Shown: in pieces, positions 6,527 to 52,734 of the stretch
Numbering within the stretch: position 1 is the first letter of the stretch
Layout: the number at the start of each line of letters is the position of its first letter
Source of the DNA: Burkholderia sp. IMCC1007
GTDB taxonomy: Bacteria > Pseudomonadota > Gammaproteobacteria > Burkholderiales > Burkholderiaceae
Direction: 5' to 3'
DNA: 64,000 bases
NCBI RefSeq assembly: GCF_027257875.1
Contig: NZ_JAPVQY010000009.1
Coordinates: forward strand, 108,119 to 172,118
Notes under the pieces: model-generated
Databases searched by the model: none
Told to the model about the DNA's origin: nothing
What the model saw: the letters and a program-made list of their open reading frames with translations, nothing else
Program-made: the position numbers and the translations under genes

Positions 6527-7740
6527 GACACGTCTCCTTCCCTGGGTTCATTGATCGACCGTGCGCCGTCGTGTCGGCGCGATCCGGTCACCGTTGCAGT
6601 TGCCGTCGTCTCCCTTCGTCGCGCGTGTGCGACCGGCGATAGATAGTGGCCGATGCACGCTCGAACATGACCCATGACGCGCCGGATGCCGACCGGAAGC
6701 GGTCGCACCTTCGTCGTGCACGTGCGGCCGAGCTTCGCATCGGTCGCGTGTGCAGCCGCGGTTTCCGATTCATTGTTTCGGCATCCCTATGCTTTTTCCG
6801 CCGTTCCGGTGCGTTAAACGCACCTTTCCTCATGAAGCATGCAAGCAAGGGGTGAGCCATGGGCAGCCTCGCCCCGTGCGGCAAGGGCCTGCAGGCGCAC
6901 GATGAATCTCCCGTTACGCGGATCGCGCGTTTTTGATTCATCGGCGAATCAGCGCTCTCCCGCTATCGACTTCGCACCGTCCGCCCGCAGGCCGCGGGCG
7001 ACTTGCATCGCATCTCGCGCGAACGCCATCGGCCTCCGATAGCCGCCGCACGAACGGTGTGAGCAAAGCGCGTGCGCGCCGCTCCCGCCGCGCCGTTGCG
7101 AGCGAGCGTTTCAGATACGAAACGTTTCATACGCGCCGCTTCGGACGACGCAGGTGATGCCGCGCGCAGGCGCAATCGTGCACGTGCGAAGGGGCGCTGA
7201 GCGTCGCCGACGGCCCGCGCATTGCCCGGACAAAATTCGCGAACCGAAACGTTTGACGAGACCCGGAACGACGCACGTGTGCGGATCGAGGACCGCACGC
7301 AACGCGACTCGCGATTCTTCGGACGACGCGACCCGAGCGACTTGCGCGAACGATCGGACGTATCGCTGCGTCGCGACACCCCATCGACGTGCGCGTCGTA
7401 GCAATTGTGAAACGTTCCGCGGCGATCTACGTGTGCGGCGCGAACGGAGCCCGCTCACAGCGCCGTTGGTTTGAATATTGCTATATCGGCAGCAGGGACA
7501 GGTGCCCGAATGCAACGACAGTGAGGAGCGCTCATGACGTGATCGACGAGGTGCAAGAAGACGGCCGCGGCCCGACGGTTCCCCGGCGATGGGGGGTGGA
7601 GAAACGCGGAGCGACGCCTCGAACACGGTGGATGTCGCGCGGCCGACACAACCGCATGCGGGGGTGCCGAGGTCGGCCGAATGCCTGCTTGGTGCGAAAT
7701 GCCGGGTCTGCCGGCGCATGGAAGTCCAACGAGGATAATG
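6527..7740. promoter_or_regulatory. 1.2 kb intergenic regulatory region between glmS and wecB
   Basis: No ORF here looks coding: the candidates are short, arginine-rich and lack recognisable domains. What stands out is a palindromic element. AAACGTTT occurs at 7120-7127, inside the longer dyad GAAACGTTTC at 7119-7128, and again at 7247-7254. A near match GAAACGTTC lies at 7409-7417. The same 8-mer occurs twice between nfrB and the 20766 gene. The region is long enough for a distal enhancer-type promoter or a long leader for wecB. Direct evidence is the repeated motif; its role as an operator is inferred. Confidence 0.45.
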
Positions 7741-8958
7741 ATGAAAAAGATCTTGCTTGTGTTCGGCACGCGGCCGGAAGCCATCAAGATGGCGCCGCTC
7801 GTCCGCGCACTGAAAGCGCGCGCCGACGTCGAGGCGAGTGTCTGCGTGACGGCCCAGCATCGGGAAATGCTGGATCAGGTGCTCACCTTGTTCGACATCA
7901 AGCCGGACTACGACCTCAACCTGATGCGTCAGAGCCAGACGCTGACCGACGTGACGACCGGCATTCTTCAGGCGATCGGCGTGGTGTTCGACGACTTGCG
8001 TCCGGACGTCGTGCTGGTGCACGGCGACACGACGACGACGCTCGCCGTCAGTATCGCGGCGTTCTACCGCTATCTGCCGATCGGCCACGTGGAAGCGGGC
8101 CTGCGCAGCGGCGACATCTGGTCGCCGTGGCCCGAGGAATTGAATCGCCGCGTGACCGACGCGGTGTCGTCCTGGCATTTCGCGCCGACCGAGCAGGCGC
8201 GCGACAACCTGTTCGCCGAAGGCGTGTCGGTCGGCGGGGTCGTGATGACGGGCAACACCGTGATCGATGCGCTGCACGACGTCAAACGGATGCTCGATCA
8301 CGATACCGCCCTCAACGACGGGGTCGCCGCGCACTTTCCGTTTCTCGATCCGTCGCGCCGCGTCGTACTGATCACCGGCCATCGCCGCGAGAGCTTCGGC
8401 GAGCCGTTCCGGAATTTCTGCGATGCGCTGTGCACGCTTGCGAAGCGCTATCCCGATGCGCAGTTCGTCTATCCGCTGCACATGAATCCGAACGTGCGCG
8501 AGCCGGCGCGCGCACTGCTCGGCAGCGTGTCGAACATTTACCTGATCGAACCGCAGGAATATCTGTCGTTCGTCTACCTGATGTCGCGCGCGCATTTCAT
8601 CATCACCGATTCGGGCGGGATCCAGGAGGAAGGGCCGGCGCTCGGCAAGCCGGTTCTCGTCACGCGCGACACGACCGAGCGGCCCGAAGCGATCCGCGCC
8701 GGCACCGCGCGGCTCGTCGGCACGGATCGGGACCGGATCGTGCGCGAGGCGTCGCGCCTCTTCGACAACGAGACTGCGTACGACGAAATGTCGCGGGCGA
8801 GCAATCCGTATGGCGACGGCCATGCGAGCGAGCGAATCGTGCATGCGCTGATGCATACGGCGGCGGAGACCGCAACGGCGACGAGCTTTTCGATGGGCAC
8901 CGCGGAGATGCCGTTCAATGCGCTGACGATGGGGCTGCAGGTGATGCGTCCGCGTTGA
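7741..8958 (+). CDS. wecB: UDP-N-acetylglucosamine 2-epimerase (non-hydrolysing)
   Basis: A 405-residue WecB/MnaA-type epimerase that interconverts UDP-GlcNAc and UDP-ManNAc. Family hallmarks are [15 protein letters not shown] at the N-terminus, [34 protein letters not shown], and [15 protein letters not shown] with TTERPEA. The C-terminus is about 30 residues longer than E. coli WecB. Two adjacent ATGs exist (7738 and 7741); 7741 is better spaced from GAGGAT. In E. coli WecB is also NfrC, needed with NfrA and NfrB to make the phage N4 glycan receptor, so its presence beside NfrAB homologues here is telling. No O-antigen or common-antigen genes are in the window. Confidence 0.95.
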
Positions 8959-9947: not shown

Positions 9948-11810
9948 TCATTCGTCCACCTTGAACGCCGACACGAGCCGCGTCAGTTCCGCCGCCTGCT
10001 GCTTCAGGCTTTCCGCGGCCGCCGCACTTTCCTCGACCAGCGCCGCGTTCTGCTGCGTCATCTGGTCGAGCGACTGCACCGCGTCGCCGATCTGATCGAT
10101 GCCGGCGCTCTGCTCGACGCTCGCTTCGGCGATCTCGCTCATCATCGCGCTCACGCCCTGCACCTGCGACACGACATCGCGCATCACGCTGCCCGCCTCG
10201 GCGACGAGCCGCGATCCGGTATTCACGGTGCCCGCGCTGTGCTCGATCAGCGTCTTGATTTCCTTCGCCGCCTGCGCGCTGCGCTGCGCGAGATTGCGCA
10301 CTTCGGAGGCCACGACCGCGAACCCGCGCCCCTGCTCGCCGGCGCGCGCCGCCTCGACGGCCGCATTCAACGCGAGAATGTTGGTCTGGAACGAGATGCT
10401 GTCGATCATCACGATGATCTCGGAGATCCGCTGCGACGCGTCGCTGATCTGCTCCATCGTGGTCACGACTTCGCCGACCACCTGCCCGCCGCGCGCCGCC
10501 GTATCGGATGCACCGGTGATCAGCTTCGCGGCCGTGGTCGCCGTTTCGGTGTTGTTGCGCACGACGGCCGTGATTTCCTCCATCGACGACGCCGTGCGCT
10601 CGAGGTTGCCCGACTGCCCTTCGGTGCGTTCGCTGAGATCCGCATTGCCCGACGCGATCTGCGCCGAGCCGGTCGCGATCGACACGGACGCCGCGCGAAT
10701 CCGGTGAACGAGCGTCGACAGCGACGACACGAAGCGGTTGAACGCATCCGACAGCTGCCCGATCTCGTCCTCGCTCTCGACCGTCATCCGGCGCGTCAGG
10801 TCGCCGTGGCCGCTCGCGATCTCCGCCAGCAGCGTCGCCGCGCGCCGGATCGGCGCGGCGATCGCGCGGCCGACCAGCCAGATCACGATCAGCGCCACCG
10901 CGAGGCCCACTACCGCCGCGACCAGCGCCGCGCTGCGAATCGCGCGCGTCACCGGGCCGAGCAGCTCCGCCTGCGGCACCTCGACGACCACATACGCGGT
11001 CAGCTCCGGGATGAACGACGTCGCGATGAAACGCGCGCCGCCGTCGCCGTCGTAGCTCAGGTACGCATACGGCTTGCCGGCCAGCAGCGTCGACGATGCA
11101 TCGCCGGGCAGGCCCCGCGCGTCCTTCAGGAAGTGCTTGCCGTCGATCAGCGACGTATCGCGATGCATCATGATCGCGCCGTCGGGCCGCACGAGATACG
11201 CAAAGCCGGTCTCGCCGATCCGGTACGCGGCGATCCCTTTCGCGAGCGCATCGACGGACAGGCTCATGCTGGCCGCGCCGACCGGCACGCCGTCGCGCTC
11301 GACCCGGCTGTTGATGAACATCATGTAGCCGCCGACGGTGACCTCGTGATCCATGTTCACGTCGAACGGCTTGCCCGACGCGAGGAAGGCGGTCAGCCAC
11401 TGGTCGTTGTCGGTGACCTTGCGCTGCAGGCCGGCTTCGTTGTAGTAGTTGCCGCTCTTCACCGACACCCACTGCACCGACGCCGCCTTCTGCTCGTCCT
11501 TCACGTTCTTCGCGAGCTGGATCCAGTTGCGCGTGCCGGCGTCGGGTTCGCCGTCGGCTTCCCACTGCAGCAGGAACGCATCGCGCGCGAGCAGGCGCGA
11601 CGCCGCGATCGGGCCGGCCATCTGCCGTTGCACGTCGGCGCGAATGCCGTTCACGGCGGTCGGCAGTTCTTCGCGCACGACGCGGTCGCGCACCGCATCG
11701 CCGATCAGACGGATGCTCAGCCCGCTCGAAATTGCGACGAACACGAGCAGGCAACTCGTCATGCTGAGAATCAGCTTGTTCTGAATGGAAAGCTTGCGCC
11801 AGAAATGCAT
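9948..11810 (-). CDS. Methyl-accepting chemotaxis protein with periplasmic dCache-type sensor
   Basis: A 620-residue chemoreceptor. The first membrane helix is at about residues 13-37 ([20 protein letters not shown]). A periplasmic sensor of about 250 residues follows with dCache features ([32 protein letters not shown]). The second helix is at about 288-315, followed by a HAMP domain ([20 protein letters not shown]). The cytoplasmic hairpin tip is [20 protein letters not shown], then [19 protein letters not shown], the CheA/CheW contact region. There is no NWETF-type CheR tether. The start at 11810 follows GAGGGGACTCC. It lies 163 bp downstream of motB in the same direction. That neighbourhood suggests it may signal to the adjacent stator system as well as to the main chemotaxis array, but this is inference. 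Confidence 0.93.
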
Positions 11811-11973
11811 GGAGTCCCCTCGATAACCGCTCGGTCTGAGCCAGTTCGGGTTATCGGCACGCGAGCGCGGGAACCGCATCGCTGGTTTCGGATGTTCGTC
11901 ATACCGCATCCGATATATCGCGGATGAGCGGCGCCGGCAGGAGCGCGGCGCCGGCCCGTCAAGCTCGTGACGC

Positions 11974-12648
11974 TCAGTACGCGACGAAGATCGTCACGCG
12001 CCGGTTGCGCGCGCGCGCGGCGGCATCGTCGCCCGCGACGAGCGGCTGCGTATCCGCGCGGCCGATCGCCGCGAGCCGGTGCGGCGCCACGCCGCGATCG
12101 GCGAGATAGCGCACGACGCTGCCGGCCCGCGCGGACGACAGCTCCCAGTTCGATTCGTATTTCGCGGTCGCGATCGGCACGCTGTCGGTATGCCCTTCGA
12201 CGAGGATGTCGCCGGTCGCGTGCGCGCTCAGCGCTCGCGCGATCTCGCCCAGCACGGGCGCCGCATCCGGCAGCACGTGCGCATCGCCGACGTTGAACAG
12301 GATCTTCGCGTCGATGCCGATCTCGATGCCGTGCGGCGCCTTCACGAGCGAAATGCGGCCGCTGCGCTTCAACGCATCGAGCGCCGCGAGCCACGCGGGC
12401 GCGTCGCCTTGCGCAGCCGCGTCGCGGGTGCTCGCGGCACCGCCGTCGCGCCGCGCAAGCGTCTGATAGCGCGCGTCGAGCGCGTTGTATTTCGCGAGCT
12501 GCAGCACATACAACGCGAGAAACAGCACCATCAGCGTCGTGATGAGATCGGCGTACGAGATCAGCCAGCGTCCCGACTGCGCGCCGTCGGGATCGTCTTC
12601 GGGATCGGCGGCCGAACCGGCTCGCGCGGAATCAGTTCGGGTGGTCAT
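11974..12648 (-). CDS. MotB-like stator protein with OmpA peptidoglycan-binding domain
   Basis: A 224-residue stator B subunit. The single membrane helix [20 protein letters not shown] holds the proton-binding Asp (D34, aligning with E. coli MotB D32) in the invariant YAD context. The C-terminal OmpA/Pal domain has [38 protein letters not shown] and [10 protein letters not shown], which anchor the stator to peptidoglycan. It is shorter than E. coli MotB (about 308) and closer to MotD-type proteins. The gene follows motA by 18 bp, which is translational coupling distance. With no flagellar structural genes in the window, it may power flagella as an alternative stator or drive another machine. 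Confidence 0.92.
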
Positions 12649-12666
12649 GTCGCGGCTCCGTGTTCA

Positions 12667-13431
12667 TCATGCGAGCGACTCCGCCGCGCGGCCGCGCACG
12701 TCGCCGGTCAGCCGCGTTTCGATCGTGTGCGGCGACTCCTTGCGCGAGATCGCCAGCAAGCCGTCGAGATACAGCTTGCGGAAACGCAGCTCGCTGTCGA
12801 TCTGCGCGCGCAGCTTTCCGTACAGCGGCAGGAACACGAGGTTCGCGAACGCGAGGCCGTAGAGCGTCGCGATGAACGCCACCGCGATGCCCGGGCCGAG
12901 CTGCGCCGGTTCGAGCATGTGGCTCGTCACCTGCACGAGCCCGAGCACCGAGCCGAGGATGCCGAACGTCGGCGCGTAGCCGCCGGCCTGCTGCCAGACG
13001 CGCGCGGCGGCCAGCCGGCTGCGCTCGTACGCGTCGAGGTCGCGCTGCAGCGCATCTTCGAGCACCGCGGTCGACACGCCGTTCGCGAGCAGCTCCAGCC
13101 CGCGGCGCGCGAACGGATGAATGCCGCTCACGTCCATCGATTCGAACGCGAGCAGGCCGTCGAGCTTCGCGCGATCGCCCCACTCCAGCAGGTCGGCCAG
13201 GTGCTTGCGATCGACTTCCTGCGCGCGCACGAACGCGAGCCGCAACTGCTTCACCGCATCGAAGAAGCGCGCCCATGTGTTCTGGATCATCACCGCGCCG
13301 AGCGTGCCGCCGAGCACGATGACGAACGCCTCGAACTGGAACAGCATCGAGAAGTGTCCGCCTTCGAGCGCGAAACCGAATACGATGGCCGCGCCGCCGA
13401 GCAGCGCGCCGACCAGGGTCAACAGGTCCAT
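12667..13431 (-). CDS. MotA-like stator protein (MotC/PomA type)
   Basis: A 254-residue integral membrane stator A subunit with four predicted helices. The first two are in MDLLTLVGALLGGAAIVFGF and VIVLGGTLGAVMIQ; the last two contain GGYAPTFGILGSVLGLVQV and GIAVAFIATLYGLAFANLV. The Pro of YAPTFG and the glycine-rich third helix are the family's channel residues. In the cytoplasmic loop, K and E spaced by eight residues (in AKLDGLLAFE) align with torque residues R90 and E98 of E. coli MotA. GGAGACACC precedes the ATG. It starts 22 bp after the FliG-fusion gene and ends 18 bp before motB, so the three form an operon. Confidence 0.93.
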   Translation of the reverse strand: MDLLTLVGALLGGAAIVFGFALEGGHFSMLFQFEAFVIVLGGTLGAVMIQNTWARFFDAVKQLRLAFVRAQEVDRKHLADLLEWGDRAKLDGLLAFESMDVSGIHPFARRGLELLANGVSTAVLEDALQRDLDAYERSRLAAARVWQQAGGYAPTFGILGSVLGLVQVTSHMLEPAQLGPGIAVAFIATLYGLAFANLVFLPLYGKLRAQIDSELRFRKLYLDGLLAISRKESPHTIETRLTGDVRGRAAESLA

Positions 13432-13453
13432 GGTGTCTCCGTTCCGTTATCCG

Positions 13454-14710
13454 TCATGCATCGGACGAGGCCGACGGCGCGGCTGCCGCGCCCGCCGCGG
13501 GTGCCGCGGGTGCCTTCGCGGCACGCACGGCATCGAGCACGCGCCGCTCGATCTCCTCGATCTCGATCGGGTCGAGCTTCAGCTCGCGGCGCATCACCCA
13601 CGACACCTCGTTGCGCCGCGCCTCCGTCATCACGGAGAACAGCTTGTCGGCAACCGCGCGATCGTCGAGGCTCGCGATCAGTTTCGCGAGATCATACGTA
13701 TCGAATCCGCTGATCACGTCGAACAGCGTGCGCTGATCGACCCACACGATGTCCTCGAGGCCGCGCATGTCGCCGCCCGAGCGCGGGTTGCGCCGCGAGA
13801 AATACGCGACGCCCTTTTGCTCGACGTAGCCGAGCACCTTCGACTTGCGGAACGCGAACACCTCTTCGGCGATCTCGGCATGCGACAGCTTGTTGAGCAG
13901 GAGCTTGCGGTCGACGCCGATCAGCGCTTCGAGATCGGCCAGCTCGATGAGCTCGAGCTCGCTGTTGATCGACACGTCGAGGTCGCAATCGGCGACCTGC
14001 TGCGCACGATCGACCACGCGCGCTGCGTCGAACGTGACGACCTGGCGCGCGTCCGACGACGACGCATGGTCGGCTGCGCTGCCCGCATGGTTCGTCTGCG
14101 CGGCTTCGATCGTGACGAGATTGAGCTTCTCCATCCGGCGCAGCATCGCGAGCACGTGCGGCCGCGAATGGCCGGCGATTGCGCGGCAGCGGCGGATCAC
14201 GTCGGCGAGCGGCACCGACGTCTCGGCCGCATGCGTGTGCAGCGGCCGGCGGGCCCACGCGTCGCCGGACTCGCGCGTGTCGGGCGCCGCCATCAGCGAC
14301 AGCACATGCGCGTACGACAGCACGCCGGGCATGAAGTCGGCATGCGTATAGGTCGCGAGCTGGTCGTCCTTGCGCTTCACGCGCCGGATCATCGTGCGCA
14401 CGATATGGCGCAGCAGCGCGGACACCTGCTCGATTTCCTTGTCGAGCATCGCGGCCGGCACGACCGTGAGCTGACAGAACGACAGCGCCTTCGCGGTGTG
14501 CGCGCGCGGCTCGGACGCGAGCAGCGCCGATTCGCCGAAGAATTCGCCGCGGCCGAGCGTCGCGACCACGACGCGCTTGTCGTCGCATCGCGTGGACAGC
14601 TCGACCTTGCCGTCGGCGATGAGGAACAGGACGGGCTCGCCGGCGAAGCCCTCCGAATAGATGATCTCGCCGGGCGCGGCCGTGCGCGTCCAAGATTGCT
14701 GATGGTTCAT
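13454..14710 (-). CDS. Cyclic-nucleotide-binding / winged-helix / FliG C-terminal domain fusion
   Basis: A 418-residue protein with an unusual order of domains. Residues about 10-130 form a cNMP-binding jelly roll (GEIIYSEGFAGEPVLFLIADG) with a phosphate-binding cassette in FFGESALLASEPRAHTAKA that keeps the Arg. Residues about 165-205 look like a CRP-type winged helix (SRPHVLAMLRRMEKLNLVTI). Residues about 235-400 resemble FliG middle and C-terminal domains: SHAEIAEEVF, LEDIVWVDQRTLFDVISGFD at 318-337, then DDRAVADKLFSVM and a torque-helix-like segment to residue 400. An Ala/Pro tail ends the protein. It heads an operon with motA and motB (22 and 18 bp gaps). GGGGAACCAA precedes the ATG. A link between a second messenger and a stator rotor face is an inference. 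Confidence 0.85.
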   Translation of the reverse strand: MNHQQSWTRTAAPGEIIYSEGFAGEPVLFLIADGKVELSTRCDDKRVVVATLGRGEFFGESALLASEPRAHTAKALSFCQLTVVPAAMLDKEIEQVSALLRHIVRTMIRRVKRKDDQLATYTHADFMPGVLSYAHVLSLMAAPDTRESGDAWARRPLHTHAAETSVPLADVIRRCRAIAGHSRPHVLAMLRRMEKLNLVTIEAAQTNHAGSAADHASSSDARQVVTFDAARVVDRAQQVADCDLDVSINSELELIELADLEALIGVDRKLLLNKLSHAEIAEEVFAFRKSKVLGYVEQKGVAYFSRRNPRSGGDMRGLEDIVWVDQRTLFDVISGFDTYDLAKLIASLDDRAVADKLFSVMTEARRNEVSWVMRRELKLDPIEIEEIERRVLDAVRAAKAPAAPAAGAAAAPSASSDA

Positions 14711-15180: not shown

Positions 15181-16149
15181 TTGATTAAACTGACAAAAAC
15201 CATCTCGCGCACGGCCATCGCCGCCTGCGTCGCTTATGCCGGCCTGATGCCGGTTTCCCAGTTCGCCCAAGCCCAGGTCGAACCGCTGAAGAACCCGGTC
15301 TACGGCGTCACGCTCGATGATCTGACGAAACTGGATGCGATCGTCGCGTCGCTGCAGAACTTGCCTTACCGTCCGACCGTGCGTGTCGTGTTCGATCCGG
15401 GCACGTCGGCCGCCGACTACTACGCGCCGTTGCTGCGCCTGCATGCGGTCGCTTACGTGATGGGCGAAGTCTACGATTCGTACTATTTCCCGACGGATCT
15501 CGCGACCTACAAGGCACGCACGCAGGAACTGGTGTCGCAACTGAAGAATACGGTCGACGTGTGGGAGATCGCCAACGAAATCAACGGCGAATGGCTGCGC
15601 GCCGATCCGTCCGGCACCACCGCCACGGTCAATTCGGAAGAGCAGCAGATCGGCCAGATGGTTGCCGCGGCCAACACGATCGTGAAATCGAACGGCGGCA
15701 AGACCGCGATCACGCTGTACTACAACGACGACAGCAAGGGCACCAACTGCTGGGAGAAGCCGCAGGATTACTGGAAGACCTGGCCGACGACCTTCCTGTC
15801 GTCGACGGTTCGCCAGCAGGCCGACTACGCGCTGTTCAGCTACTACCCGTATCAGGATTGCCCGGGGCTGAATCCGTCGTGGAAAAACGATTTCGCGGCG
15901 CTGGAAAGCATCTTCCCGAACGCGAAGGTCGGCTTCGGCGAGATCGGCACGTCCAGCACCTCGGCGCCCGCATCGGTGCAGCAGAACCTGATCAAGACCT
16001 ACTACCCGATGGTCAACAGCATGACCGATCCGCGTTTCATCGGCGGCTTCTTCTGGTGGAACTACGCGGAACAGATGGTCCCGTATTCGACGAGCTCGTA
16101 CTTCCAGTTGCTGCGTCAGACGATCCTCCCGCTCAAGGCGCCGAACTGA
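15181..16149 (+). CDS. Secreted clan GH-A glycoside hydrolase-like protein
   Basis: A 322-residue exported protein. The signal peptide spans residues 1-32 (basic N-terminus, hydrophobic core, FAQAQ cleavage). The mature part reads as a TIM barrel: VWEIANEINGEW carries the Asn-Glu pair (N132, E133) typical of the acid/base residue of clan GH-A, and VGFGEIG offers E254 as nucleophile at the expected strand 7. FFWWNYAEQM follows as the strand 8 aromatic platform. The start is TTG at 15181, because no ATG or GTG fits the signal peptide and GGAAAG is well spaced. It faces the nfrBA operon tail to tail (37 bp apart), suggesting it trims or releases the exported polysaccharide. I cannot assign a GH family number. 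Confidence 0.8.
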   Translation: MIKLTKTISRTAIAACVAYAGLMPVSQFAQAQVEPLKNPVYGVTLDDLTKLDAIVASLQNLPYRPTVRVVFDPGTSAADYYAPLLRLHAVAYVMGEVYDSYYFPTDLATYKARTQELVSQLKNTVDVWEIANEINGEWLRADPSGTTATVNSEEQQIGQMVAAANTIVKSNGGKTAITLYYNDDSKGTNCWEKPQDYWKTWPTTFLSSTVRQQADYALFSYYPYQDCPGLNPSWKNDFAALESIFPNAKVGFGEIGTSSTSAPASVQQNLIKTYYPMVNSMTDPRFIGGFFWWNYAEQMVPYSTSSYFQLLRQTILPLKAPN

Positions 16150-16185
16150 TCGCCCGGCCATAGTCAACACCGTCAGCGCAGTCGC

Positions 16186-17874
16186 TCAGAACCACAATGT
16201 CGCGCGCACCACGAGACCACGTGCGCGGGCCGCTGACGTCACCCCGAACCGGTATTGCACCGTCACGTCGAGATAGCTTGCCGGCGCGGTATACCTGCCT
16301 TCGCGAAACCAGTACCGCACCTGGATGCCGGGCCCCGCACCGATTGCCGTTTGGTCCGACTCGCGATTGTCGTGATCGCCCGCCACCGCGACGTGCGGAT
16401 AGACGGTCAGCCGGTCGCTGATCATCGGCAAGCGCCACGTGTGCCCGTAACGCAGCTCCGAATAAATGATGTAGCGCCCTGCCTTGATGAAATACGCGCC
16501 TTCGACATACGCCTGCCAGCTGCGCCAGCTCGGTTCGGTGACCCTCAGGTCGGTGCCGCCCTCCGACGAATAGCCGAGCCGCATCAGCCAGTCCGTCATC
16601 GACAGGCTGCCGATGTGAAACAGCCGCTCGGCGGTCAACACTACGTTCTGGTCGGCCAGCGGCTTGTAGCGCGCCCCGACCGATCCCTGCACGGTCGGCA
16701 TGCCCGTCACGTTGCCGTTACCATCGTAGGCCGTGCCGTATCCGCGCACGAAGAACTGCAGGATGCGACCGTTCTGATAGCCGATCTTCGGCGGCTGCCA
16801 GTACGCCTCGACACCAGGCTGAAGGACGCTGATCGTGCCTTGCGGGCCGAACGCGGCCGACTGGTACGGCGCGCTCAGCACGAAACCCCACCTGCGCTCC
16901 AGTTGCTCGACTTCCCGCCGATAGCCGAACTTGCGCTGCGAGTCGAATGCATGTTCGTCTTCATCGGCGTCGAGACTGTGCTCGAAGAGCTGCACGGACT
17001 GCTCGTTCAAGCCGATCCGCTTGGCCGCATAGCCGGCGTCCGCGTAGTTCATCGCGTTGCCCGCGCCGCCGGCGAACCCCTCGTGAAATGCGTCGAGCGC
17101 CTCCTGATCCTTGTGTTCGCGAAGCAGGTCGTAGGCCTCCTGCAGTTTCCGCATCGCGGTGTCGTCCGCCGGCGCCGGCTGATCGGCTTGCCGCGCCTGC
17201 GCGACGATCGACGCGGCCATGTTGCGGTCGCCATCGGACGTCGCGTCGCCCGCCGCCAGCTCGGCCACGCGGATCGCGCTTTCGTTGTCGCCCGCCTGCA
17301 AGCTCATCTGCGCGATGCGCACCTGGATCGCGGCCGACTTTTCGCCGGCGAGGGGCGCCAGCGCCACGCCGGCTTCGTGCGGGCGCTTCGCCGCGAGCGC
17401 GCTGTCCGCCCACGCGAGGCGCAGGTTGCGCTGCTGCTCGCCGCTCCACTTTCCGGTCGTGACGGCCGCCGAGAAATCGCTGCACGCGACGTCGTAGCGC
17501 ATCTGCCGCTGCGCCATGTAGCCGTGTTGCGCGAGTACCGGCGCGCTTTTCGGAAACCGGGTGCTCAGCGATTCGACCACCGCGTCCGCTTCGTCGACCT
17601 TGCCTTCGCGCCGGTACACGTCGACGAGCAGCAGCCCGAGCTGCTCGCTTCCGGGCTGAATCCGCAACGCGCGCAACACGTTGTTTTCCGCACGCGGCAG
17701 GTCGCCTGCATTGATGGCCTTGTATGCGCCGTCGGCGAGCCGATAGGCTCTGGGTGTCAGTGGGCGGGCGGCGAATGCCGGCGCCTGCCAGACGAGCGAC
17801 ATGGCGACCGCCAATGCGCTCAGCCGTGCACAGCGCTGGAGGCTCGTCGCGATCGGGCGTGTCGCGCGTTTCAT
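16186..17874 (-). CDS. nfrA: NfrA-like outer-membrane polysaccharide export protein (TPR plus C-terminal NfrA_C domain)
   Basis: A 562-residue exported protein. The signal peptide ends near residue 35 (AMSLVWQAPAFA). Residues about 40-310 are TPR-like helical repeats (AYKAINAGDLPRAENNVLRA; NYADAGYAAKRIGLNEQSVQ). The C-terminal 230 residues are beta-rich with alternating aromatics and end in ATLWF, a typical outer-membrane C-terminus; they match the bacteriophage N4 adsorption protein A C-terminal family. E. coli NfrA is about 990 residues, so this is a compact form with fewer TPRs. Its ATG overlaps the nfrB stop by four bases (ATGA), so translation is coupled. Likely role: periplasmic scaffold and outer-membrane exit for the polymer made by NfrB. 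Confidence 0.85.
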   Translation of the reverse strand: MKRATRPIATSLQRCARLSALAVAMSLVWQAPAFAARPLTPRAYRLADGAYKAINAGDLPRAENNVLRALRIQPGSEQLGLLLVDVYRREGKVDEADAVVESLSTRFPKSAPVLAQHGYMAQRQMRYDVACSDFSAAVTTGKWSGEQQRNLRLAWADSALAAKRPHEAGVALAPLAGEKSAAIQVRIAQMSLQAGDNESAIRVAELAAGDATSDGDRNMAASIVAQARQADQPAPADDTAMRKLQEAYDLLREHKDQEALDAFHEGFAGGAGNAMNYADAGYAAKRIGLNEQSVQLFEHSLDADEDEHAFDSQRKFGYRREVEQLERRWGFVLSAPYQSAAFGPQGTISVLQPGVEAYWQPPKIGYQNGRILQFFVRGYGTAYDGNGNVTGMPTVQGSVGARYKPLADQNVVLTAERLFHIGSLSMTDWLMRLGYSSEGGTDLRVTEPSWRSWQAYVEGAYFIKAGRYIIYSELRYGHTWRLPMISDRLTVYPHVAVAGDHDNRESDQTAIGAGPGIQVRYWFREGRYTAPASYLDVTVQYRFGVTSAARARGLVVRATLWF

Positions 17875-19814
17875 GCTTGTTCTCCCAGCGGCTTCTCCGG
17901 CGGCGCGGCGTCGCCGCGGGTCCGCGCAAATTCGACGAAGCGCGAGTGCCGGGCCAGTTCGGCTGCGATCTCCGCATCGCTCGCGATGAAATAGGCAACC
18001 TTCGACCTGGCGCCGCGCCGCACGACGTCCTGCTCGTCCAGCGTGAGCGGACGTCCGACTGCAACGTTCAAGGTTCCGTCGTCCGCGGTCGAAAACGGGA
18101 CGGCGTGGTACGTGTACTGCACCTCGAAGGCGAGCGCATCCGCGAAGTGGCCCACCGCGACGTTGCCGAGGCTCACGCGGGGCAGTTCGGCCTGTTCGGC
18201 GATCGCATCAGCCAGCGATTCGGGCGACAGTGCGCAGTCTTCGAGCAACAGCTCGCCCAGCCGCCTGCCGCACGTCAGTTGCTTGTCGAGGGTTGCCTGC
18301 AGCTGCTCCAGCGTGACCACGCCCCAGCCGACCAGGATCTCGCCGATCTTCTGGCGAACCTTCCCGAGCGCTTCGTTCGACAGGTAGGTATGGCTGGTCT
18401 TGTCCCACGCGATCGGCTTGCCGCTCGCAAGATGGTTCAGATAAATGCGCCACGCGCGACACACCGCGCAGAAGTTGATCAGGTTGTTGACGAACATGCG
18501 CGGAATCGACAGCAGCCCCTGCAACCGGCCGTTCAACCTGCTGACGAAGTAGTAGCGCTGCCCGGCGCGCACGAACAGCATGATCGTGTTCACCCACAGC
18601 AGCGGCGCGAACCACGTGGCGGCCTCGGCGAGCGGCCCGCCGATGGGGCCGGCCAGCCCGGCGCTTTGCAACGCGGCAACCAGCAGGAAGTTGAGCAGCA
18701 CGGCATACGCGACCACCGAGAACAGCGATGTCACGACGCCCTTGCGATCGTGAAAGAACATGTACCGGGTGAGGAGGTCGCCCTTCCAGCCCAGTTGCTC
18801 CCAGCCCTGGAACGCGATGCCGAGGATCCAGCGCGCGCGCTGCCGATAGGCGGTCCGGAAGGTCTTCGGAAAATATTCGCGCGTGGCCAGCAGGTTTTGG
18901 TTGACGGCGCCGCCCGGTGCGCGCCGTGCATCGGTATCGCGCGTGCGATCCGACAGCGGAAAGCGCGCGAACGTCTCCTTCATCCCGAGGTCTCTCAGCC
19001 GGAAGCTGAAGTCGTAGTCCTCGGTCAGCGAAGCGGTGTTGAACGCGGAGCCGCCGCGCGCCTTCATCGCCGCTTCGATCGACCGCCGGCTGTAACACGA
19101 CGCGACGCCCGCACCCGGGACGACGCCCGTCAGGCGCCCGCGTACCGGCACATCCTTCTGGTGCGTTTCGCTGAAATCGTCGAGATAGCAGCCGGCGACG
19201 AACTCGTTCCATTTCCGCGGCAACGACAGCACGGGGAGCTGGACGAGGTCGCTGTCCGCTACCGCATGATTCAGATACTTGAGTTCCACCGGATGAATGA
19301 CGTCTTCGCAGTCGTGCATGACGACGCCGGCGAACTGGATATGGTGGGTCTCTTCGTAGCGCAGGATCGATCCGACGATCCAGTTCAGGCAGTCGGCCTT
19401 GCAGGTCGGCCCGTCGTTCATGACGGTCGCGCGCGTCACCCGCCCCGGATACCGGCGCACCATCCGTTCGACTTCCGCGGTGGTTTCGGCGTCGTTGTGA
19501 TAGGTCCCGACGAAGATGACGTAGCGCTCGTACTCGAGGGTCGCCAACGTGTTTTCGATCATTTTGGCGATCACGTCATACTCTTTCCAGGCCGGCACCA
19601 TGAGCGCCAGATAGCGCTCTTCCAGTGCACGCAGCGCGCCGACATCGATGGTCTGCGTTGGCTCGTGACGCAGCAGGCGCCCGATCTCGAACGACCAGTA
19701 ACAGGCGTCCAGCACGAGATCATCCAGCGTGCTGACCAGGATGATGACGGCCGTCATGATGGCGACGGCAGTCAATCCATTTATATACGTACTCCATATT
19801 AGTTGGCTCATCAT
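17871..19814 (-). CDS. nfrB: NfrB-like membrane glycosyltransferase with C-terminal MshEN c-di-GMP-binding domain
   Basis: A 647-residue inner-membrane family 2 glycosyltransferase. Helix one is at about residues 10-30. The catalytic region has VMNDGPTCKADCLNW, HDCEDVIHP (DxD-type metal site), SLTEDYDFSFRL (TED base) and QRARWILGIAFQGWEQ (QxxRW). Membrane helices follow at about 355-440. From residue 489 the protein carries two 24-residue MshEN repeats, 489-512 (KIGEILVGWG...LDKQ) and 518-541 (RLGELLLEDC...IAEQ), joined by the five-residue linker LTCGR, the spacing known for c-di-GMP binding. E. coli NfrB is likewise activated by c-di-GMP. It probably polymerises a ManNAc- or GlcNAc-derived glycan using products of wecB and glmS. 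Confidence 0.9.
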   Translation of the reverse strand: MMSQLIWSTYINGLTAVAIMTAVIILVSTLDDLVLDACYWSFEIGRLLRHEPTQTIDVGALRALEERYLALMVPAWKEYDVIAKMIENTLATLEYERYVIFVGTYHNDAETTAEVERMVRRYPGRVTRATVMNDGPTCKADCLNWIVGSILRYEETHHIQFAGVVMHDCEDVIHPVELKYLNHAVADSDLVQLPVLSLPRKWNEFVAGCYLDDFSETHQKDVPVRGRLTGVVPGAGVASCYSRRSIEAAMKARGGSAFNTASLTEDYDFSFRLRDLGMKETFARFPLSDRTRDTDARRAPGGAVNQNLLATREYFPKTFRTAYRQRARWILGIAFQGWEQLGWKGDLLTRYMFFHDRKGVVTSLFSVVAYAVLLNFLLVAALQSAGLAGPIGGPLAEAATWFAPLLWVNTIMLFVRAGQRYYFVSRLNGRLQGLLSIPRMFVNNLINFCAVCRAWRIYLNHLASGKPIAWDKTSHTYLSNEALGKVRQKIGEILVGWGVVTLEQLQATLDKQLTCGRRLGELLLEDCALSPESLADAIAEQAELPRVSLGNVAVGHFADALAFEVQYTYHAVPFSTADDGTLNVAVGRPLTLDEQDVVRRGARSKVAYFIASDAEIAAELARHSRFVEFARTRGDAAPPEKPLGEQA

Positions 19815-20765
19815 CGTCCCGATATGTGCGCTCGTTGGTATTGCTTCCCCCTCACACCCAACTCGGACGAAAAGCGCTCCGTCCTCGTCACCCCGTCACC
19901 CCGTCACGCCCCGCCCCCGCGGCTTGCACCACGACAACCGCCCGCGTTCGAATACGCCGTCGCCCGTGGCGCTTTCCGATTCACGCGCGCAACGTCGTTC
20001 AAAGATGCAACGTATTCGATGCGTGCCGTTCGACGCTACGCACTTGCGTGCCGGCTTGCGTCGTGCATCTCGATGCACGTTGAGATCATCGACGCATGCA
20101 GCCTGCTGTCGGGACAGCCGCCGGTCATGCAACGGCTTCGCGCTGCTCAGGTCGTGAAGCAAGTCATGCGCCATCGCCCGCGCAGCCCTTGATATTCAAG
20201 GCATCGACGTGTGCAAACAGGGATTTGGTCGACGAATCCGGGCCAAACGTTTCAGTGCTGCAACGTGCATCGGCCGATCGTGAGAAAAGCGCGTTTCGCG
20301 TCGCGTGCCGCGCAATCGGCACGCGATGACGACGGTCCCCGCACGAAAAAGCGCGGATCGACCGCGGGCAAGCGCGCACATCGGTCGTCTTCGCTCGCGC
20401 GCGCACCCACCACGAATTGCAGCGTGGCCTTATATCGAGCGTGACACGCAACTGGTTTTCCCTGAATCGTCCGAACACACTTCGACAGTAGCCAAACGAA
20501 TGCGCGAAAACAGCGCTGTTGCAAGCATGAAACGTTTATCGGGCCATTTTCGAGCCGCCGTGACGCGCCAATTCGGGTAGCGCGGCCCAGCATCCATTTG
20601 CGACGGATGGTACGTTTTTAGCTTGAAAACACTGCCATCCGGGGCACGATTTTTGTCCGGTGCCAGGCGAAAAACGCGACGCGGCATCCCGATTCTGAAG
20701 GGCATCGGGCCGTGGTCGTTTCGTTGCAGCGATGCAACCAATCTGCATATCAGAGGATGAAAATC
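19815..20765. promoter_or_regulatory. 950 bp divergent regulatory region between nfrB and the 20766 gene
   Basis: No credible ORF. The sequence is less GC-rich than the genes beside it. AAACGTTT occurs at 20245-20252 and 20530-20537, the same 8-mer as before wecB. GTTGCA-GCGA-TGCAAC at 20723-20738 is a perfect six-base inverted repeat 27 bp before the first in-frame ATG (20766), placed as an operator or upstream activator site. TGCAACG recurs at several points (for example near 20128 and 20260). The region drives nfrBA leftward and the 20766-22712 genes rightward. Confidence 0.5.
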
Positions 20766-21056
20766 ATGCCTTATCGTCGCAATCAATCTTTTCGAAACGG
20801 GTTGAGCACCGTCGCGCTACTCGCTGCTCTGGTTCCTGCGCTCGTCGTCATCGGCACGACGCAGCAGGCGAGTGCGGATCAGACCAAGCAGTCAGGCAAG
20901 ATCAAGCCGCCGCCACTGCCGATCGGTTCGGCCCAGGTCCAAATCAAGGCAGGCATGTCCGAAGAGGATTGGGAGAAGGCATACAAGGAGACGGGGCGTC
21001 CCAAGTTCGACCGGAAGCTCGTCAAGAAAAACAACGGCAACGTTGAACGCGACTAG
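20766..21056 (+). CDS. Small exported protein of the exopolysaccharide locus
   Basis: A 96-residue protein I cannot assign to a family. Residues 1-36 form a signal peptide (MPYRRNQSFRNGLSTVALLA, then a hydrophobic core ending ASA). The mature part of about 60 residues is hydrophilic with a Lys/Pro-rich section (SGKIKPPPLP) and an acidic-amphipathic segment (KAGMSEEDWEKAYKETGRPK). The start at 20766 is set by AGAGG nine bases upstream; an ATG at 20757 overlaps that site and is less likely. It is 12 bp ahead of the DUF2334 gene, so the two are one operon. It may be a periplasmic partner of polymer export or modification, judged from location only. Confidence 0.75.
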   Translation: MPYRRNQSFRNGLSTVALLAALVPALVVIGTTQQASADQTKQSGKIKPPPLPIGSAQVQIKAGMSEEDWEKAYKETGRPKFDRKLVKKNNGNVERD

Positions 21057-21068
21057 GGAGAAACGGCC

Positions 21069-22712
21069 ATGAAAAAGATCTTGATCGTCATCGCCCTGCT
21101 TGCCGGACTCGCGCAACTCACATTGCCGGGCACCGCGCACGCTCAGGCCACCACCGCCCATACGCTCGTGCTGTACGATAACCCGCCCAACAATGCGTAT
21201 TCGAAGCTCGGGCTGATGTACAGCATCATGTTGCGCAACCTGCTCGGCCACTTCAACACGACGGTCGACATGGTACCGATACAGAACTACACGGCCGGCA
21301 TGATCGGCAGCCACGATGCGACGTTCTACGTCGGCGACTACTACAACAATACGATCCCCGCTGCGTTCATGAGCGACGTGATGACCGCCACGAAGACCGT
21401 CGTCTGGTTCAAGTACAACCTGTGGCAGCTCGCGTGGAACACGGCCTACACGTTCAACCAGACCTACGGGATCAACTTCCTCGGCCTTGCCGGAATGAAC
21501 GCGGCGCCTTCGTCGAGCAATCCGAACCCGGGCTTCTACGACACCGTCTCGTACAAGAACCTGTCGATGGTCAAGTACTACGCGTATAACGCGTCGACCG
21601 GCGTCATCAGCGCGGACCCGGATGTCGGCCTGACCCAGGTGAGCGACGCCACGAAGGCCCAGACGCTCGTCACCATCAAGAACAGCAAGACCGGCGCCAC
21701 CGCGCCGTACGTGATTCGCTCTGGCAAGTTCTGGTACTTCGCCGACATGCCGTTCTCGTACATCGGCCCGACGGATCGCTACCTCGTGATCTGCGACATG
21801 CTGCACGACATCCTGCAGACCAATGCACCGGTGAATCATCGTGCGCTCGTCCGTCTCGAGGACCTCGACGCGTACACGACGACGTCTTCGATGAAACAGC
21901 TGACGGACTACCTGTACTCGAAGAACATCAAGTTCACGATGGCGACCATCCCGGTGTATACCGATCCGAACGGGTATTACAACGGCGGCGTCCCGGAGAC
22001 GATCCACCTCGCGCAGGCGACGGGCCTCAAGAGTGCGTTGAACTATGCGATCCCGCGCGGCGGCTCGATCGTCATGCACGGGCTTACGCACCAGTACGAC
22101 TCGACACCGAATCTGCTGACCGCGGTGAGCGGCAGCGACTACGAGTTCTGGTTCGCGGTGCAGAATCGTCCGGTCGATGAGGACTCCGTGCAATGGGCGA
22201 AAGGCAGAATGACCGATGGCATGCTCGAGTTCACGACCAACGGCTACAAGGTCGTCGGCTGGGCCGCGCCGCAGTACCAGATGTCGCCGAACGCAGCGGC
22301 GGCCACGGCGCAGACGTTCCCGACCACGTTCCAGCGGGCCGTCTACTACACGTCGACCAATCCGCAAATCGGTACAGGGGCCGCCAACCAGGACTTCTCG
22401 GCCGGGCAGTTCTTCCCGTACATCATCAACTCCGACTACTACGGTCAGCGGATCATTCCGGAGAACCTGGGCAGCATCCAGTACAACATCTGCAACGTCG
22501 ACCAGTTCTCGTGCATCGCGTACCCGTGGCAGACACTCGTCACCAACGCGCAGTATGGCCTCGCGGTGCGGGACGGTTTCGCGTCGTTCTTCTTCCATCC
22601 GTACTGGCTCGAACCTGACCTCGGATTGCCGGCGCTCCAGGACTTCCAGAGTCTCGTGACGGGCATCACGAACCTCGGCTATACGTGGGTGGACGGCACG
22701 ACGGCCAAGTGA
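21069..22712 (+). CDS. Secreted DUF2334 protein (polysaccharide deacetylase-like fold)
   Basis: A 547-residue protein with a clear signal peptide (MKKILIVIALLAGLAQLTLP to AHAQ, about 26 residues). The central part has the DUF2334 signatures RALVRLEDLDAYT, where the acidic pair replaces the metal Asp of NodB-type deacetylases, and GGSIVMHGLTHQYD, with the HGxTHQ metal-binding histidines. VDEDSVQWAKGRM and AAPQY follow, as in this family. A large N-terminal part (about 27-250) is needed before the domain. GGGAGAAA precedes the ATG. Located beside nfrBA and other secreted carbohydrate-active proteins, it is a good candidate for de-N-acetylating the exported glycan; deacetylase activity of DUF2334 is inferred from fold. 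Confidence 0.85.
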   Translation: MKKILIVIALLAGLAQLTLPGTAHAQATTAHTLVLYDNPPNNAYSKLGLMYSIMLRNLLGHFNTTVDMVPIQNYTAGMIGSHDATFYVGDYYNNTIPAAFMSDVMTATKTVVWFKYNLWQLAWNTAYTFNQTYGINFLGLAGMNAAPSSSNPNPGFYDTVSYKNLSMVKYYAYNASTGVISADPDVGLTQVSDATKAQTLVTIKNSKTGATAPYVIRSGKFWYFADMPFSYIGPTDRYLVICDMLHDILQTNAPVNHRALVRLEDLDAYTTTSSMKQLTDYLYSKNIKFTMATIPVYTDPNGYYNGGVPETIHLAQATGLKSALNYAIPRGGSIVMHGLTHQYDSTPNLLTAVSGSDYEFWFAVQNRPVDEDSVQWAKGRMTDGMLEFTTNGYKVVGWAAPQYQMSPNAAAATAQTFPTTFQRAVYYTSTNPQIGTGAANQDFSAGQFFPYIINSDYYGQRIIPENLGSIQYNICNVDQFSCIAYPWQTLVTNAQYGLAVRDGFASFFFHPYWLEPDLGLPALQDFQSLVTGITNLGYTWVDGTTAK

Positions 22713-22733
22713 CACGCGCCGGCGAAAGCCTCG

Positions 22734-22764
22734 TGCGACCCGCAGCAGTCAGGCGGGTCGCACA
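22734..22764 (+). terminator. Stem-loop after the DUF2334 gene
   Basis: GTGCGACCCGC (22734-22744) pairs perfectly with GCGGGTCGCAC (22754-22764), an eleven-base stem and nine-base loop, 22 bp past the stop and followed by ATTTGC. It is probably an intrinsic terminator with a poor T tract, so some read-through into the 22818 gene is possible. Confidence 0.65.
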
Positions 22765-22817
22765 TTTGCATGTGATCGGCTACGATGACGCGCGGGGATG
22801 CTTCCGGGGAGGCCGCG

Positions 22818-23786
22818 ATGATCACGTACGCCACCCGGGCCTTGCGCGGCATTCGACAGCGCGCGGCCCGGTTTCTGCACGCAAGCCGGGCGCGCCGGCG
22901 CTCGGCCGCACCGCATTCATCGCGCGCGGCGACGTTCGCCGCCGTCGGCTCATCGCTCGTCATGGCCGCGTGTAGCTGGACGCCGCACGACGTGCATGCC
23001 GACGGCATCGTCTGGCAGCTGGACAACGCGACGACCCATCCGGCCGGGAACTGGCAGATGCTCGGCATCCACGATCTGTTGATCCAGTGGAGCGTGGTCG
23101 ACGATACCGCTTACCTGCCCGGCACCAGCATCGGCGCCGCGGCGGACCTTCCGGACTGGGAGCGTATCGGCCGCGAGCCGTGGGCACAAAACGTCATTCT
23201 GGGCCTCGCCGGCTACCAGGACGAAAAGCGTGCGCGTACCCATCTGTCGACACTCGCGGAGCAGTCCGCGCAAGTCGCCCGCGTGCGCGTGCCGCTGCAT
23301 GTCGTCGGCTACTACTTCCCGGTCGAAATCGATCCGACCTGGCAGAACGCGCCCAAGCTCGCCGAGATCCTGCAGAAACTGCCGCGGCCGCTGTGGGTGA
23401 GCGTGTACGACCAGACCAATATCGGCGGGAAACCGCTGACCGACTGGCTCGCAGCGTGGCTTCCCGCTGACGTCGGCGTGTTTCTCCAGGACGGCTGCGG
23501 CGTCTATGCGCGCGAACCCTACGTCGCACGCAGTTACATCGACGCGCTGGCCTCGCGCCTGGGGAAACAACGTGTTCGGATCATCGCGGAGGCGTTCCGG
23601 CCGTCCGAACACGGCGGATTCCGTCCGGCCACCGCCGACGAACTGCGCCGGCAGCTGGCCGCTTACCGCGGCTACGAGGTCTATCTGTTCGATGGTCCGC
23701 ACTACGTGTCGAACGATCTCACCCGCGCCCTCGTCACCGGAACGCCCCCGGCGCCCGCATCCGCGCCCGCCGCACCCGCGCACTGA
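22818..23786 (+). CDS. DUF4434-like putative glycoside hydrolase, probable lipoprotein
   Basis: 322 residues from the ATG at 22818, chosen because GGGGAGG lies five bases upstream; an in-frame ATG at 22785 has no such site. The long N-terminal export signal is Arg-rich and ends in SSLVMAACSW, a lipobox-like sequence with Met at -3, so lipidation at the Cys is likely but not certain. The mature protein follows DUF4434: GIHDLLIQWSVVDD near the first strand, VILGLAGYQDEKR, then VSVYDQTNIGGK, LQDGCGVYA and RIIAEAFRPSEHGG. DUF4434 proteins are predicted TIM-barrel hydrolases. Position after the EPS genes suggests a surface enzyme acting on the same polymer. Confidence 0.7.
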   Translation: MITYATRALRGIRQRAARFLHASRARRRSAAPHSSRAATFAAVGSSLVMAACSWTPHDVHADGIVWQLDNATTHPAGNWQMLGIHDLLIQWSVVDDTAYLPGTSIGAAADLPDWERIGREPWAQNVILGLAGYQDEKRARTHLSTLAEQSAQVARVRVPLHVVGYYFPVEIDPTWQNAPKLAEILQKLPRPLWVSVYDQTNIGGKPLTDWLAAWLPADVGVFLQDGCGVYAREPYVARSYIDALASRLGKQRVRIIAEAFRPSEHGGFRPATADELRRQLAAYRGYEVYLFDGPHYVSNDLTRALVTGTPPAPASAPAAPAH

Positions 23787-52662: not shown

Positions 52663-52664
52663 CT

Positions 52665-52734
52665 GTTCGGAAGCTCAACAGGTAGAGCAGCCGGCGCAAG
52701 CCGGTGTGTGGCGGGTTCGAATCCCGTCCGAACG
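52665..52734 (+). ncRNA. tRNA-like element 2 with shrunken anticodon arm
   Basis: The acceptor strands GTTCGGA (52665-52671) and TCCGAAC (52727-52733) pair perfectly. The D arm is GCTC-AACAGGTA-GAGC with the conserved GG. The T arm is CGGG-TTCGAAT-CCCG. The anticodon arm is abnormal: GCCGG-CGCAAG-CCGGT gives a six-base loop, or CCGGC-GCAA-GCCGG gives a GNRA tetraloop, so no normal seven-base anticodon loop forms. CCA is not encoded. Two bases downstream, TTGTCC-GCAA-GGACAA forms another GNRA hairpin (52735-52750). It is probably a tRNA mimic rather than a decoding tRNA. Confidence 0.7.

Follow-up and report, generated by a model that had tools for sequence, protein, structure and literature searches.

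A conserved variant of the NfrBA-YbcH system with glycosidase-like and deacetylase-like genes in Burkholderia sp. IMCC1007

The 64,000-nucleotide stretch of the Burkholderia sp. IMCC1007 genome analysed here (contig NZ_JAPVQY010000009.1; hereafter the window) carries a locus of six genes at positions 15181–23786, encoding an exported glycosidase-like protein (GH), NfrA, NfrB, a small exported protein, a DUF2334 protein and a DUF4434-like protein. This locus is a genuine variant, conserved in several genera, of the NfrBA-YbcH system of Escherichia coli; the NfrBA-YbcH system itself was already known, and what is new is the variant with GH, DUF2334 and the small protein. With moderate confidence, we consider that the locus encodes a fuller NfrBA-YbcH exopolysaccharide system, putatively responsive to cyclic diguanylate (c-di-GMP), whose polymer, based on N-acetylmannosamine (ManNAc), would be deacetylated and cut.

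Conservation of the gene set

The gene set was compared in 65 Burkholderia genomes and in a family sample of 398 genomes. Co-conservation of nfrAB with GH and DUF2334, which the initial annotation had set beforehand as a test of its proposal, was evident in the same 24 of the 65 Burkholderia genomes: NfrB was found in 26 of them and GH and DUF2334 in 24 each, the two sets of 24 being identical and coinciding exactly with the genomes that contain a close NfrB (at least 77% identity). The other two NfrB-bearing genomes have a 46% form only. The order and orientation of all six genes are fixed in all 22 relatives where they were read on one stretch (L003–L024), while a flanking cyclic nucleotide monophosphate (cNMP) gene is near the locus in some relatives and absent in others. 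The conserved block therefore ends at GH and DUF4434, and a chance neighbourhood was rejected as an explanation, since the order is kept while the cNMP gene comes and goes. In genome G048 the genes are distributed over more than one contig, and wecB is located between nfrA and GH; extra fragmentary nfr-type clusters with copies of the DUF2334, small, wecB and DUF4434 genes are also present there (L063, L068). In genomes G063 and G064 (L028, L029) the full module is accompanied by another nfrB-nfrA-wecB cluster, 50% identical, which lacks GH and DUF2334.

In the family sample, NfrB was detected in 122 genomes, 76 of which had no GH, and GH was detected in 47 genomes. All but one of the latter were in the NfrB list (46 of 47), and in the 47th (G213, 88% complete) an NfrB end at a contig edge adjoins nfrA-wecB-DUF2334-GH. 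When named genomes were scanned with the GH alignment and 80 of 148 relatives were kept, NfrB was found in 40 of the 80 GH loci, accompanied by DUF2334 in 36, NfrA in 36 and wecB in 30 of these 40. Full clusters were found in Burkholderia, Trinickia, Paraburkholderia, Dyella, and Rhodanobacter, and partial ones in Bdellovibrio, Hyalangium, Ignavibacteria, and a Rokubacteria assembly. In the Ralstonia type, each of the 15 genomes with GH has an nfrB-nfrA-wecB-DUF2334-GH cluster whose GH is more distant, two of these clusters being cut by contig ends inside nfrB.

A sample collected from the NfrB side, comprising 20 of the 21 matches in genomes other than the window's, contained NfrA in 18, wecB in 17 and DUF4434 in 14 of the 20 stretches read, but DUF2334 in just three and GH in one. 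Therefore, wecB, NfrA, and DUF4434 belong to the core of the system, and the variant is marked by DUF2334 and GH. The one GH-less NfrB cluster that was annotated (L155) has BcsB, two AlgX-type genes and one MBOAT gene instead. The wecB gene is located inside the nfr cluster in Trinickia, Ralstonia-type genomes, Paraburkholderia, Dyella, and Rhodanobacter, nearly always where the GH/DUF2334 pair is present. Among the 24 Burkholderia genomes with the module, it is within about 12 kb of nfrB in eight, inside the cluster in G048, and elsewhere in 15. As a discriminating partner wecB was rejected: it was found in all 24 genomes with the module and also, as homologues, in 31 of the 41 without it, so that its mere presence is uninformative.

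Pairwise divergence was calculated for 35 loci picked for having NfrB, NfrA, DUF2334, and GH (11 Burkholderia, 7 Trinickia, 5 Ralstonia-type, 10 Dyella/Rhodanobacter, and 2 others). The divergences of NfrB, NfrA, and DUF2334 are correlated with r of 0.97–0.99, and those of GH correlate with these three with r of only 0.43 to 0.53. Between Burkholderia and Dyella/Rhodanobacter, GH is 69% identical, while the identity is 36% for NfrB, 36% for DUF2334, and 23% for NfrA; the GH of the Ralstonia-type cluster is 39% identical to that of Burkholderia, although the NfrB proteins share 56%. Within Burkholderia and Trinickia alone, GH tracks the other genes (r from 0.945 to 0.963). Judging from these comparisons, GH has apparently been transferred among nfr clusters belonging to different lineages, as would be expected if it acts on their product; this would suggest that the polymer of both lineages can be cut by GH. 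In a quick NfrB tree, for which 85 rows were thinned to 70 and which contains several long branches, the Dyella NfrB falls together with that of E. coli. A single origin of GH and DUF2334 together with NfrB was not supported, at least five state changes being needed on this tree. A sign test on independent pairs gave no significant result (median p 0.5), and correlated gain is therefore not proved by the tree on its own.

Proteins encoded by the locus

The coordinates of the genes are listed in Table 1. A four-base overlap joins nfrA and nfrB (17871–17874), and a gap of 942 bases separates nfrB from the small exported gene. A single operon is excluded, since nfrBA is read leftward while GH and small-DUF2334-DUF4434 are read rightward. 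Signal peptides and the lipobox were called by eye rather than with a prediction program. No RNA elements scored above the Rfam gathering score in the locus.

NfrB matched PRK15489 with 1026.6 bits (cut-off 537) and is 39% identical to E. coli NfrB; in the alignment, the DxED, TED, and QxxRW motifs are kept as MHDCEDV, LTEDYD, and QRARW. It also matched the c-di-GMP motif NF053729 (50.8, cut-off 38) and, slightly above the cut-off, MshEN (24.0 against 23.1). Both MshEN glycines tested in E. coli are kept, and the Leu before the first of them is replaced by Ile. On the basis of these matches, NfrB carries a predicted MshEN-type c-di-GMP domain. Identity with the poly-N-acetylglucosamine system (PNAG, PgaABCD) was rejected, the score of NfrB against the PgaC-type synthase being 14.1 with a cut-off of 422.3. 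NfrA matched NfrA_C with 179.5 bits (cut-off 25); TPR models matched below their cut-offs, and a signal sequence was recognised by eye. NfrA is 562 amino acids (aa) long, as compared with 990 aa in E. coli.

The DUF4434 protein has weak matches in the family databases (Pfam, 17.6 bits with a cut-off of 30; NCBIfam PRK09936, E 1.1e-7 and 31.6 bits with a cut-off of 344). Profile comparison with YbcH by hhalign gave a probability of 98.4% and an E value of 9.1e-15 over 204 columns, and residues E181, D183, D236, and E269 are invariant in all 23 aligned sequences, including that of E. coli. A lipobox-like Cys is present in the window's protein and many relatives, and by eye E. coli YbcH has none. 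By sequence homology, the DUF4434 protein is a homologue of E. coli YbcH, encoded in the E. coli operon nfrBA-ybcH (PMC8669469). Therefore, it belongs to the core system and was rejected as a Burkholderia-specific extra. Altogether, the features expected of an NfrBA-YbcH system are present, comprising the NfrB motifs, the MshEN-type domain, NfrA_C, the YbcH homologue, and WecB.

For GH no Pfam or NCBIfam family matched above the cut-off, so the assignment of its fold rests on the structure model, a (beta/alpha)8 barrel with a mean predicted local distance difference test score (pLDDT) of 91.1. Residues N132, E133, and E254 are invariant in all 54 aligned sequences, the glutamates being placed after strands 4 (NE) and 7. 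GH is thus modelled as a barrel of clan GH-A in which the two predicted catalytic glutamates are invariant. Its best solved relatives by sequence are weak (E 0.28 and 0.58), and no particular GH-A family is claimed, since the rows of the structural match list (VIA-align) were tied and consisted mostly of GH1-type enzymes.

In the DUF2334 protein, D265, H337, H341, and H510 are invariant in all 26 aligned sequences; the first three we take to be the metal-binding Asp and the HxxxH motif of NodB-like deacetylases. Its structural matches include Agd3, PelA, and CE4-type enzymes. The best Foldseek match was the fungal deacetylase Agd3, presumably of family CE18, which acts on galactosaminogalactan; the template modelling (TM) scores were 0.39/0.34 and the root-mean-square deviation was 11.4. 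Agd3 was absent among the best 50 matches listed in a second structural comparison of the same model, and the DUF2334 profile had no sequence match to solved structures at E values up to 10. The model and the invariant D-H-H set point to a predicted polysaccharide deacetylase fold (NodB-like, CE4/CE18-like). The 99-aa small protein had no family match above the cut-off in Pfam or NCBIfam. Its gene immediately precedes DUF2334 in the Burkholderia loci read and in most clusters of Trinickia/Paraburkholderia, and was not seen in the Ralstonia-type or Dyella clusters read.

All genes named by the initial annotation are present at or close to the positions it gave. The overlapping nfrB and nfrA genes do lie amid four genes for exported proteins, with glmS and wecB nearby, and the GH-A-like and DUF2334 folds it had proposed agree with the models and the invariant active-site residues. 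Its description of the E. coli system as a simple one of NfrA, NfrB, and WecB was mistaken, the operon being nfrBA-ybcH according to PMC8669469. Consequently, the idea that the core here carries added enzymes stands for GH and DUF2334 (plus the small protein) and falls for DUF4434, which as a YbcH homologue is part of the core.

Promoter-like elements and a candidate activator

Sigma-54-type sites with -24/-12 GG and GC elements were found for nfrBA, small-DUF2334-DUF4434, glmS, and wecB. In all 24 Burkholderia loci scored, the best site on the nfrBA side reached 10–11 of 12 (shuffled mean 7.3), and that on the small-DUF2334-DUF4434 side 9–10 of 12 (shuffled mean 6.4). GG and GC of the site at 20608–20623 are invariant in all 16 aligned sequences. 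The glmS-wecB gap has one such site per gene in the four genomes listed (the window's, G009, G045, and G064), although in G009 (L069) the site on the glmS side is 1.6 kb from glmS. The plain sigma-54 pattern matched 18 times across the window against 11 expected, and three of 100 shuffles gave a count as high; since this count is weak alone, the argument is carried by the position and conservation of the sites.

A dyad, GTTTCA-N4-TGAAAC, is present at least once in all 24 nfrB-small gaps, twice in 21 of them, and in five of the six glmS-wecB gaps viewed. All five dyad sites of the 64-kb window (up to two mismatches; shuffled mean 0.45) fall in its glmS-wecB and nfrB-small gaps. The degenerate pattern occurs at 17 places in the 8.57-Mb genome, of which three are here and seven in six other stretches examined. 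One of the dyads precedes a gene whose product is a sigma-54 activator containing a VpsR domain. All 20 other genomes examined, of which 10 carry the module and 10 lack it, keep the dyad before this VpsR-like gene, 19 of them exactly and one with one mismatch. Others are at a fimbrial usher cluster and a glycosyltransferase cluster. The former (L191:105-4476), of the chaperone-usher/spore-coat-U kind, is preceded by a sigma-54-type site as well as by the dyad. No obvious connection with surface glycans was seen in L190, L192 and L193, three of the six stretches. In Ralstonia-type genomes, the dyad (up to one mismatch) was found upstream of nfrB in all four loci scanned, and in Dyella/Rhodanobacter in one of three loci, inside wecB.

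The activator that would recognise the dyad is most likely the VpsR-like protein, which the dyad before its own gene makes the candidate. It was rejected as a module-specific partner and cannot be regarded as specific to the nfr pathway, because 64 of the 65 genomes contain matches (E up to 1e-120), and often more than one. The idea of a sigma-54 switch is plausible because RpoN and the c-di-GMP effector BerB control the Bep exopolysaccharide in Burkholderia cenocepacia (PMC5552954). The sigma-54-type sites and the dyad common to the glmS-wecB and nfrB-small gaps, and the dyad before the VpsR-like gene, are new and tie the Nfr pathway to putative sigma-54 control of the Burkholderia cell surface.

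Table 1. Genes and DNA elements of the locus and of the glmS-wecB region, in window positions
Feature	Position	Strand	Basis or remark
GH, exported glycosidase-like protein	15181-16149	+	TTG start
nfrA, TPR and outer-membrane barrel	16186-17874	-	NfrA_C, 5.5e-53
nfrB, inner-membrane glycosyltransferase with c-di-GMP motif	17871-19814	-	PRK15489 and MshEN matches
Small exported protein, 99 aa	20757-21056	+	ATG at 20757
DUF2334, predicted periplasmic polysaccharide deacetylase	21069-22712	+	Pfam, 1.1e-41
DUF4434-like, YbcH homologue, probable lipoprotein	22785-23786	+	hhalign with YbcH set
glmS, glutamine-fructose-6-phosphate aminotransferase (amino-sugar supply)	4709-6526	-	SIS and GATase domains
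wecB (nfrC)-like UDP-GlcNAc 2-epimerase	7681-8958	+	Epimerase_2, 3.1e-121
Sigma-54-type site, glmS side	6844-6859	-	TGGYNYRNNNNTTGCW match; also in G009, G045, G064
Dyad CGTTTCAGATACGAAACG	7107-7124		glmS-wecB gap; weaker dyad at 7397-7414
Sigma-54-type site, wecB side	7467-7482	+	TGGTTTGAATATTGCT; same 16 bases in G009, G045, G064
Sigma-54-type site, nfrBA side	20158-20173	-	10-11/12
Dyad 1	20248-20265		nfrB-small gap
Dyad 2	20517-20534		nfrB-small gap; weaker third dyad at 20722-20739
Sigma-54-type site before small-DUF2334-DUF4434	20608-20623	+	9-10/12

Adjoining the locus, at 9948–14710 on the minus strand, is an odd, motor-like set of genes for a chemoreceptor (dCache, HAMP, MCP), MotB-like and MotA-like proteins, and a cyclic-nucleotide-binding protein with a FliG_C-like end, the dCache and FliG_C matches being below the cut-offs. 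Elsewhere in the window, Rfam reported a tRNA at 52664–52735 (plus strand, 39.5 bits), for which there was no ARAGORN call.

Proposed pathway, alternatives and known systems

In the E. coli system, the precursor is UDP-ManNAc and NfrB is gated by c-di-GMP (PMC8669469, PMC8669472). By analogy, GlmS and WecB would provide UDP-N-acetylglucosamine (UDP-GlcNAc) and UDP-ManNAc, and NfrB would polymerise a chain of N-acetylhexosamine, probably ManNAc, at the inner membrane once c-di-GMP binds its MshEN-type domain. The DUF4434/YbcH protein may act as a conserved helper, periplasmic or lipid-anchored, while DUF2334 would strip acetyl groups off the chain in the periplasm, GH would cut or trim it, and NfrA would pass it through the outer membrane. 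In the window's genome and its near relatives, glmS, wecB, nfrBA, and small-DUF2334-DUF4434 could be co-activated from sigma-54 promoters, switched by an enhancer-binding protein that recognises the dyad, most likely the VpsR-like one. A more detailed version can be offered only tentatively. In it, the product would be a distinct, partly deacetylated (positively charged) poly-mannosamine-type exopolysaccharide with a dedicated deacetylase and glycosidase, an NfrBA-built parallel to Pel and galactosaminogalactan, whose synthesis and export genes are under one sigma-54/VpsR-like switch, with NfrB gated by c-di-GMP. The full surface-polymer pathway proposed by the initial annotation thus gains from the co-conservation, the presence of wecB in clusters and the shared promoter-like and dyad elements (those of GH excepted), and loses from the placement of wecB elsewhere in 15 of the 24 genomes with the module.

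Several observations weigh against the proposed pathway. Confidence in the DUF2334 model is intermediate (pLDDT 70.9), and DUF2334 and GH are rare in the sample collected from NfrB (3 and 1 of 20). Genome G099 has a 70% NfrB, DUF2334, DUF4434, and wecB, yet no GH. Sigma-54-type sites before GH in Burkholderia are barely or not above the shuffled mean, and the same is true of those before nfrB and the small gene in Trinickia/Paraburkholderia, and of those in Dyella/Rhodanobacter. The dyad (up to one mismatch) was found in none of 11 Trinickia/Paraburkholderia-type loci, three of which have two-mismatch sites. Since the dyad motif was defined from these very sites, its enrichment is partly post hoc and the counts are descriptive, not an independent test. 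Moreover, GH-family proteins also occur outside nfr clusters: 40 of the 80 named GH loci have no NfrB, and each of the 15 Ralstonia-type genomes has a second GH away from nfr, with a GH114 gene near the annotated one. The annotated Ralstonia case (L102:7255-10996) is a solo GH near a GH114 gene, with no nfr gene in the stretch read. Four Burkholderia genomes also contain DUF2334 paralogues (66–67% identity) outside nfr (L064–L067), with no nfr genes in the stretches read.

These paralogues and the GH loci lacking NfrB would be expected if both enzymes acted on another glycan (peptidoglycan, another exopolysaccharide or a host glycan) and shared just a place or regulation with nfr; judging from structure titles, many deacetylases with such a fold act on peptidoglycan or chitin. 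We nevertheless hold this to be distinctly unlikely, because the two enzymes strictly co-occur with a close NfrB across the 65 Burkholderia genomes and are associated with NfrB proteins of two distant lineages, the Burkholderia type and the E. coli-like Dyella type. A role of GH and DUF2334 in turnover or release, by which the Nfr polymer would be shed for dispersal or for hiding a phage receptor, fits the separate transcription of GH, its absence from 19 of the 20 clusters collected from NfrB, and the extra GH of the Ralstonia-type genomes, near GH114 in the annotated one. In addition, wecB-dependent phages of E. coli carry glycan deacetylase tailspikes (PMC8669472), and therefore acetyl removal can matter for phage binding. 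However, DUF2334 diverges alongside NfrB and NfrA (r 0.97–0.98) and shares the biosynthetic promoter region; a maturation enzyme fits better, and the turnover role seems unlikely to us. That the polymer is not based on ManNAc, with wecB serving another pathway and NfrB using UDP-GlcNAc or another nucleotide sugar, appears very improbable: the distance of wecB from nfr in 15 of 24 genomes, its presence in genomes lacking the module and the structural match of DUF2334 to Agd3, whose substrate is galactosaminogalactan, can be read in this way, but wecB accompanies 17 of the 20 loci collected from NfrB and 30 of the 40 GH/NfrB loci, and the glmS-wecB gap has the same dyad and promoter type.

No published description of a gene set combining nfr, GH, and DUF2334 was found among the literature matches listed, which cover few subscription papers; one marine-metagenome paper among these matches names DUF2334. 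The closest known system is NfrBA-YbcH/WecB of E. coli, the source of the N4 glycan receptor (NGR), which likewise comprises an MshEN-type glycosyltransferase, a TPR/barrel exporter, YbcH/DUF4434, and UDP-ManNAc (PMC8669469, PMC8669472). Its operon is counted among the class 3 genes of the flagellar hierarchy (PMC8669469), while sigma-54-type sites are found here. Unlike the window's locus, the E. coli operon has no GH or DUF2334 gene within the 16 kb around it. Pel (PelA) and the fungal galactosaminogalactan system (Agd3) use another polymerase and exporter; the glycosidase here is of the modelled GH-A type, and DUF2334 has no sequence match to a solved structure. The RpoN/BerB-Bep system of B. 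cenocepacia resembles the locus in placing sigma-54 and an enhancer-binding protein over a c-di-GMP-linked exopolysaccharide (PMC5552954), but its polymer genes are different, and the candidate activator here has a VpsR domain.

In the nfr clusters of Achromobacter xylosoxidans and Simplicispira suum, nfrB and nfrA, joined in Achromobacter by wecB, are likewise accompanied by polymer-modifying genes (PMC8669472, PMC8669469). These are a BcsB homologue and/or O-acetyltransferase genes, as in L155, in contrast to DUF2334 and GH in clusters of the window's kind, and the locus thus suggests two alternative styles of finishing an Nfr polymer, O-acetylation on the one hand and deacetylation with cutting on the other. 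NGR is the receptor for several groups of E. coli phages, and its structure has been postulated, not solved (PMC8669472). If GH and DUF2334 act on the Nfr polymer, they would provide enzymes to cut NGR and to read its acetylation, and if the poly-mannosamine reading is true, the mobile GH could be a ready-made cutter for this receptor.

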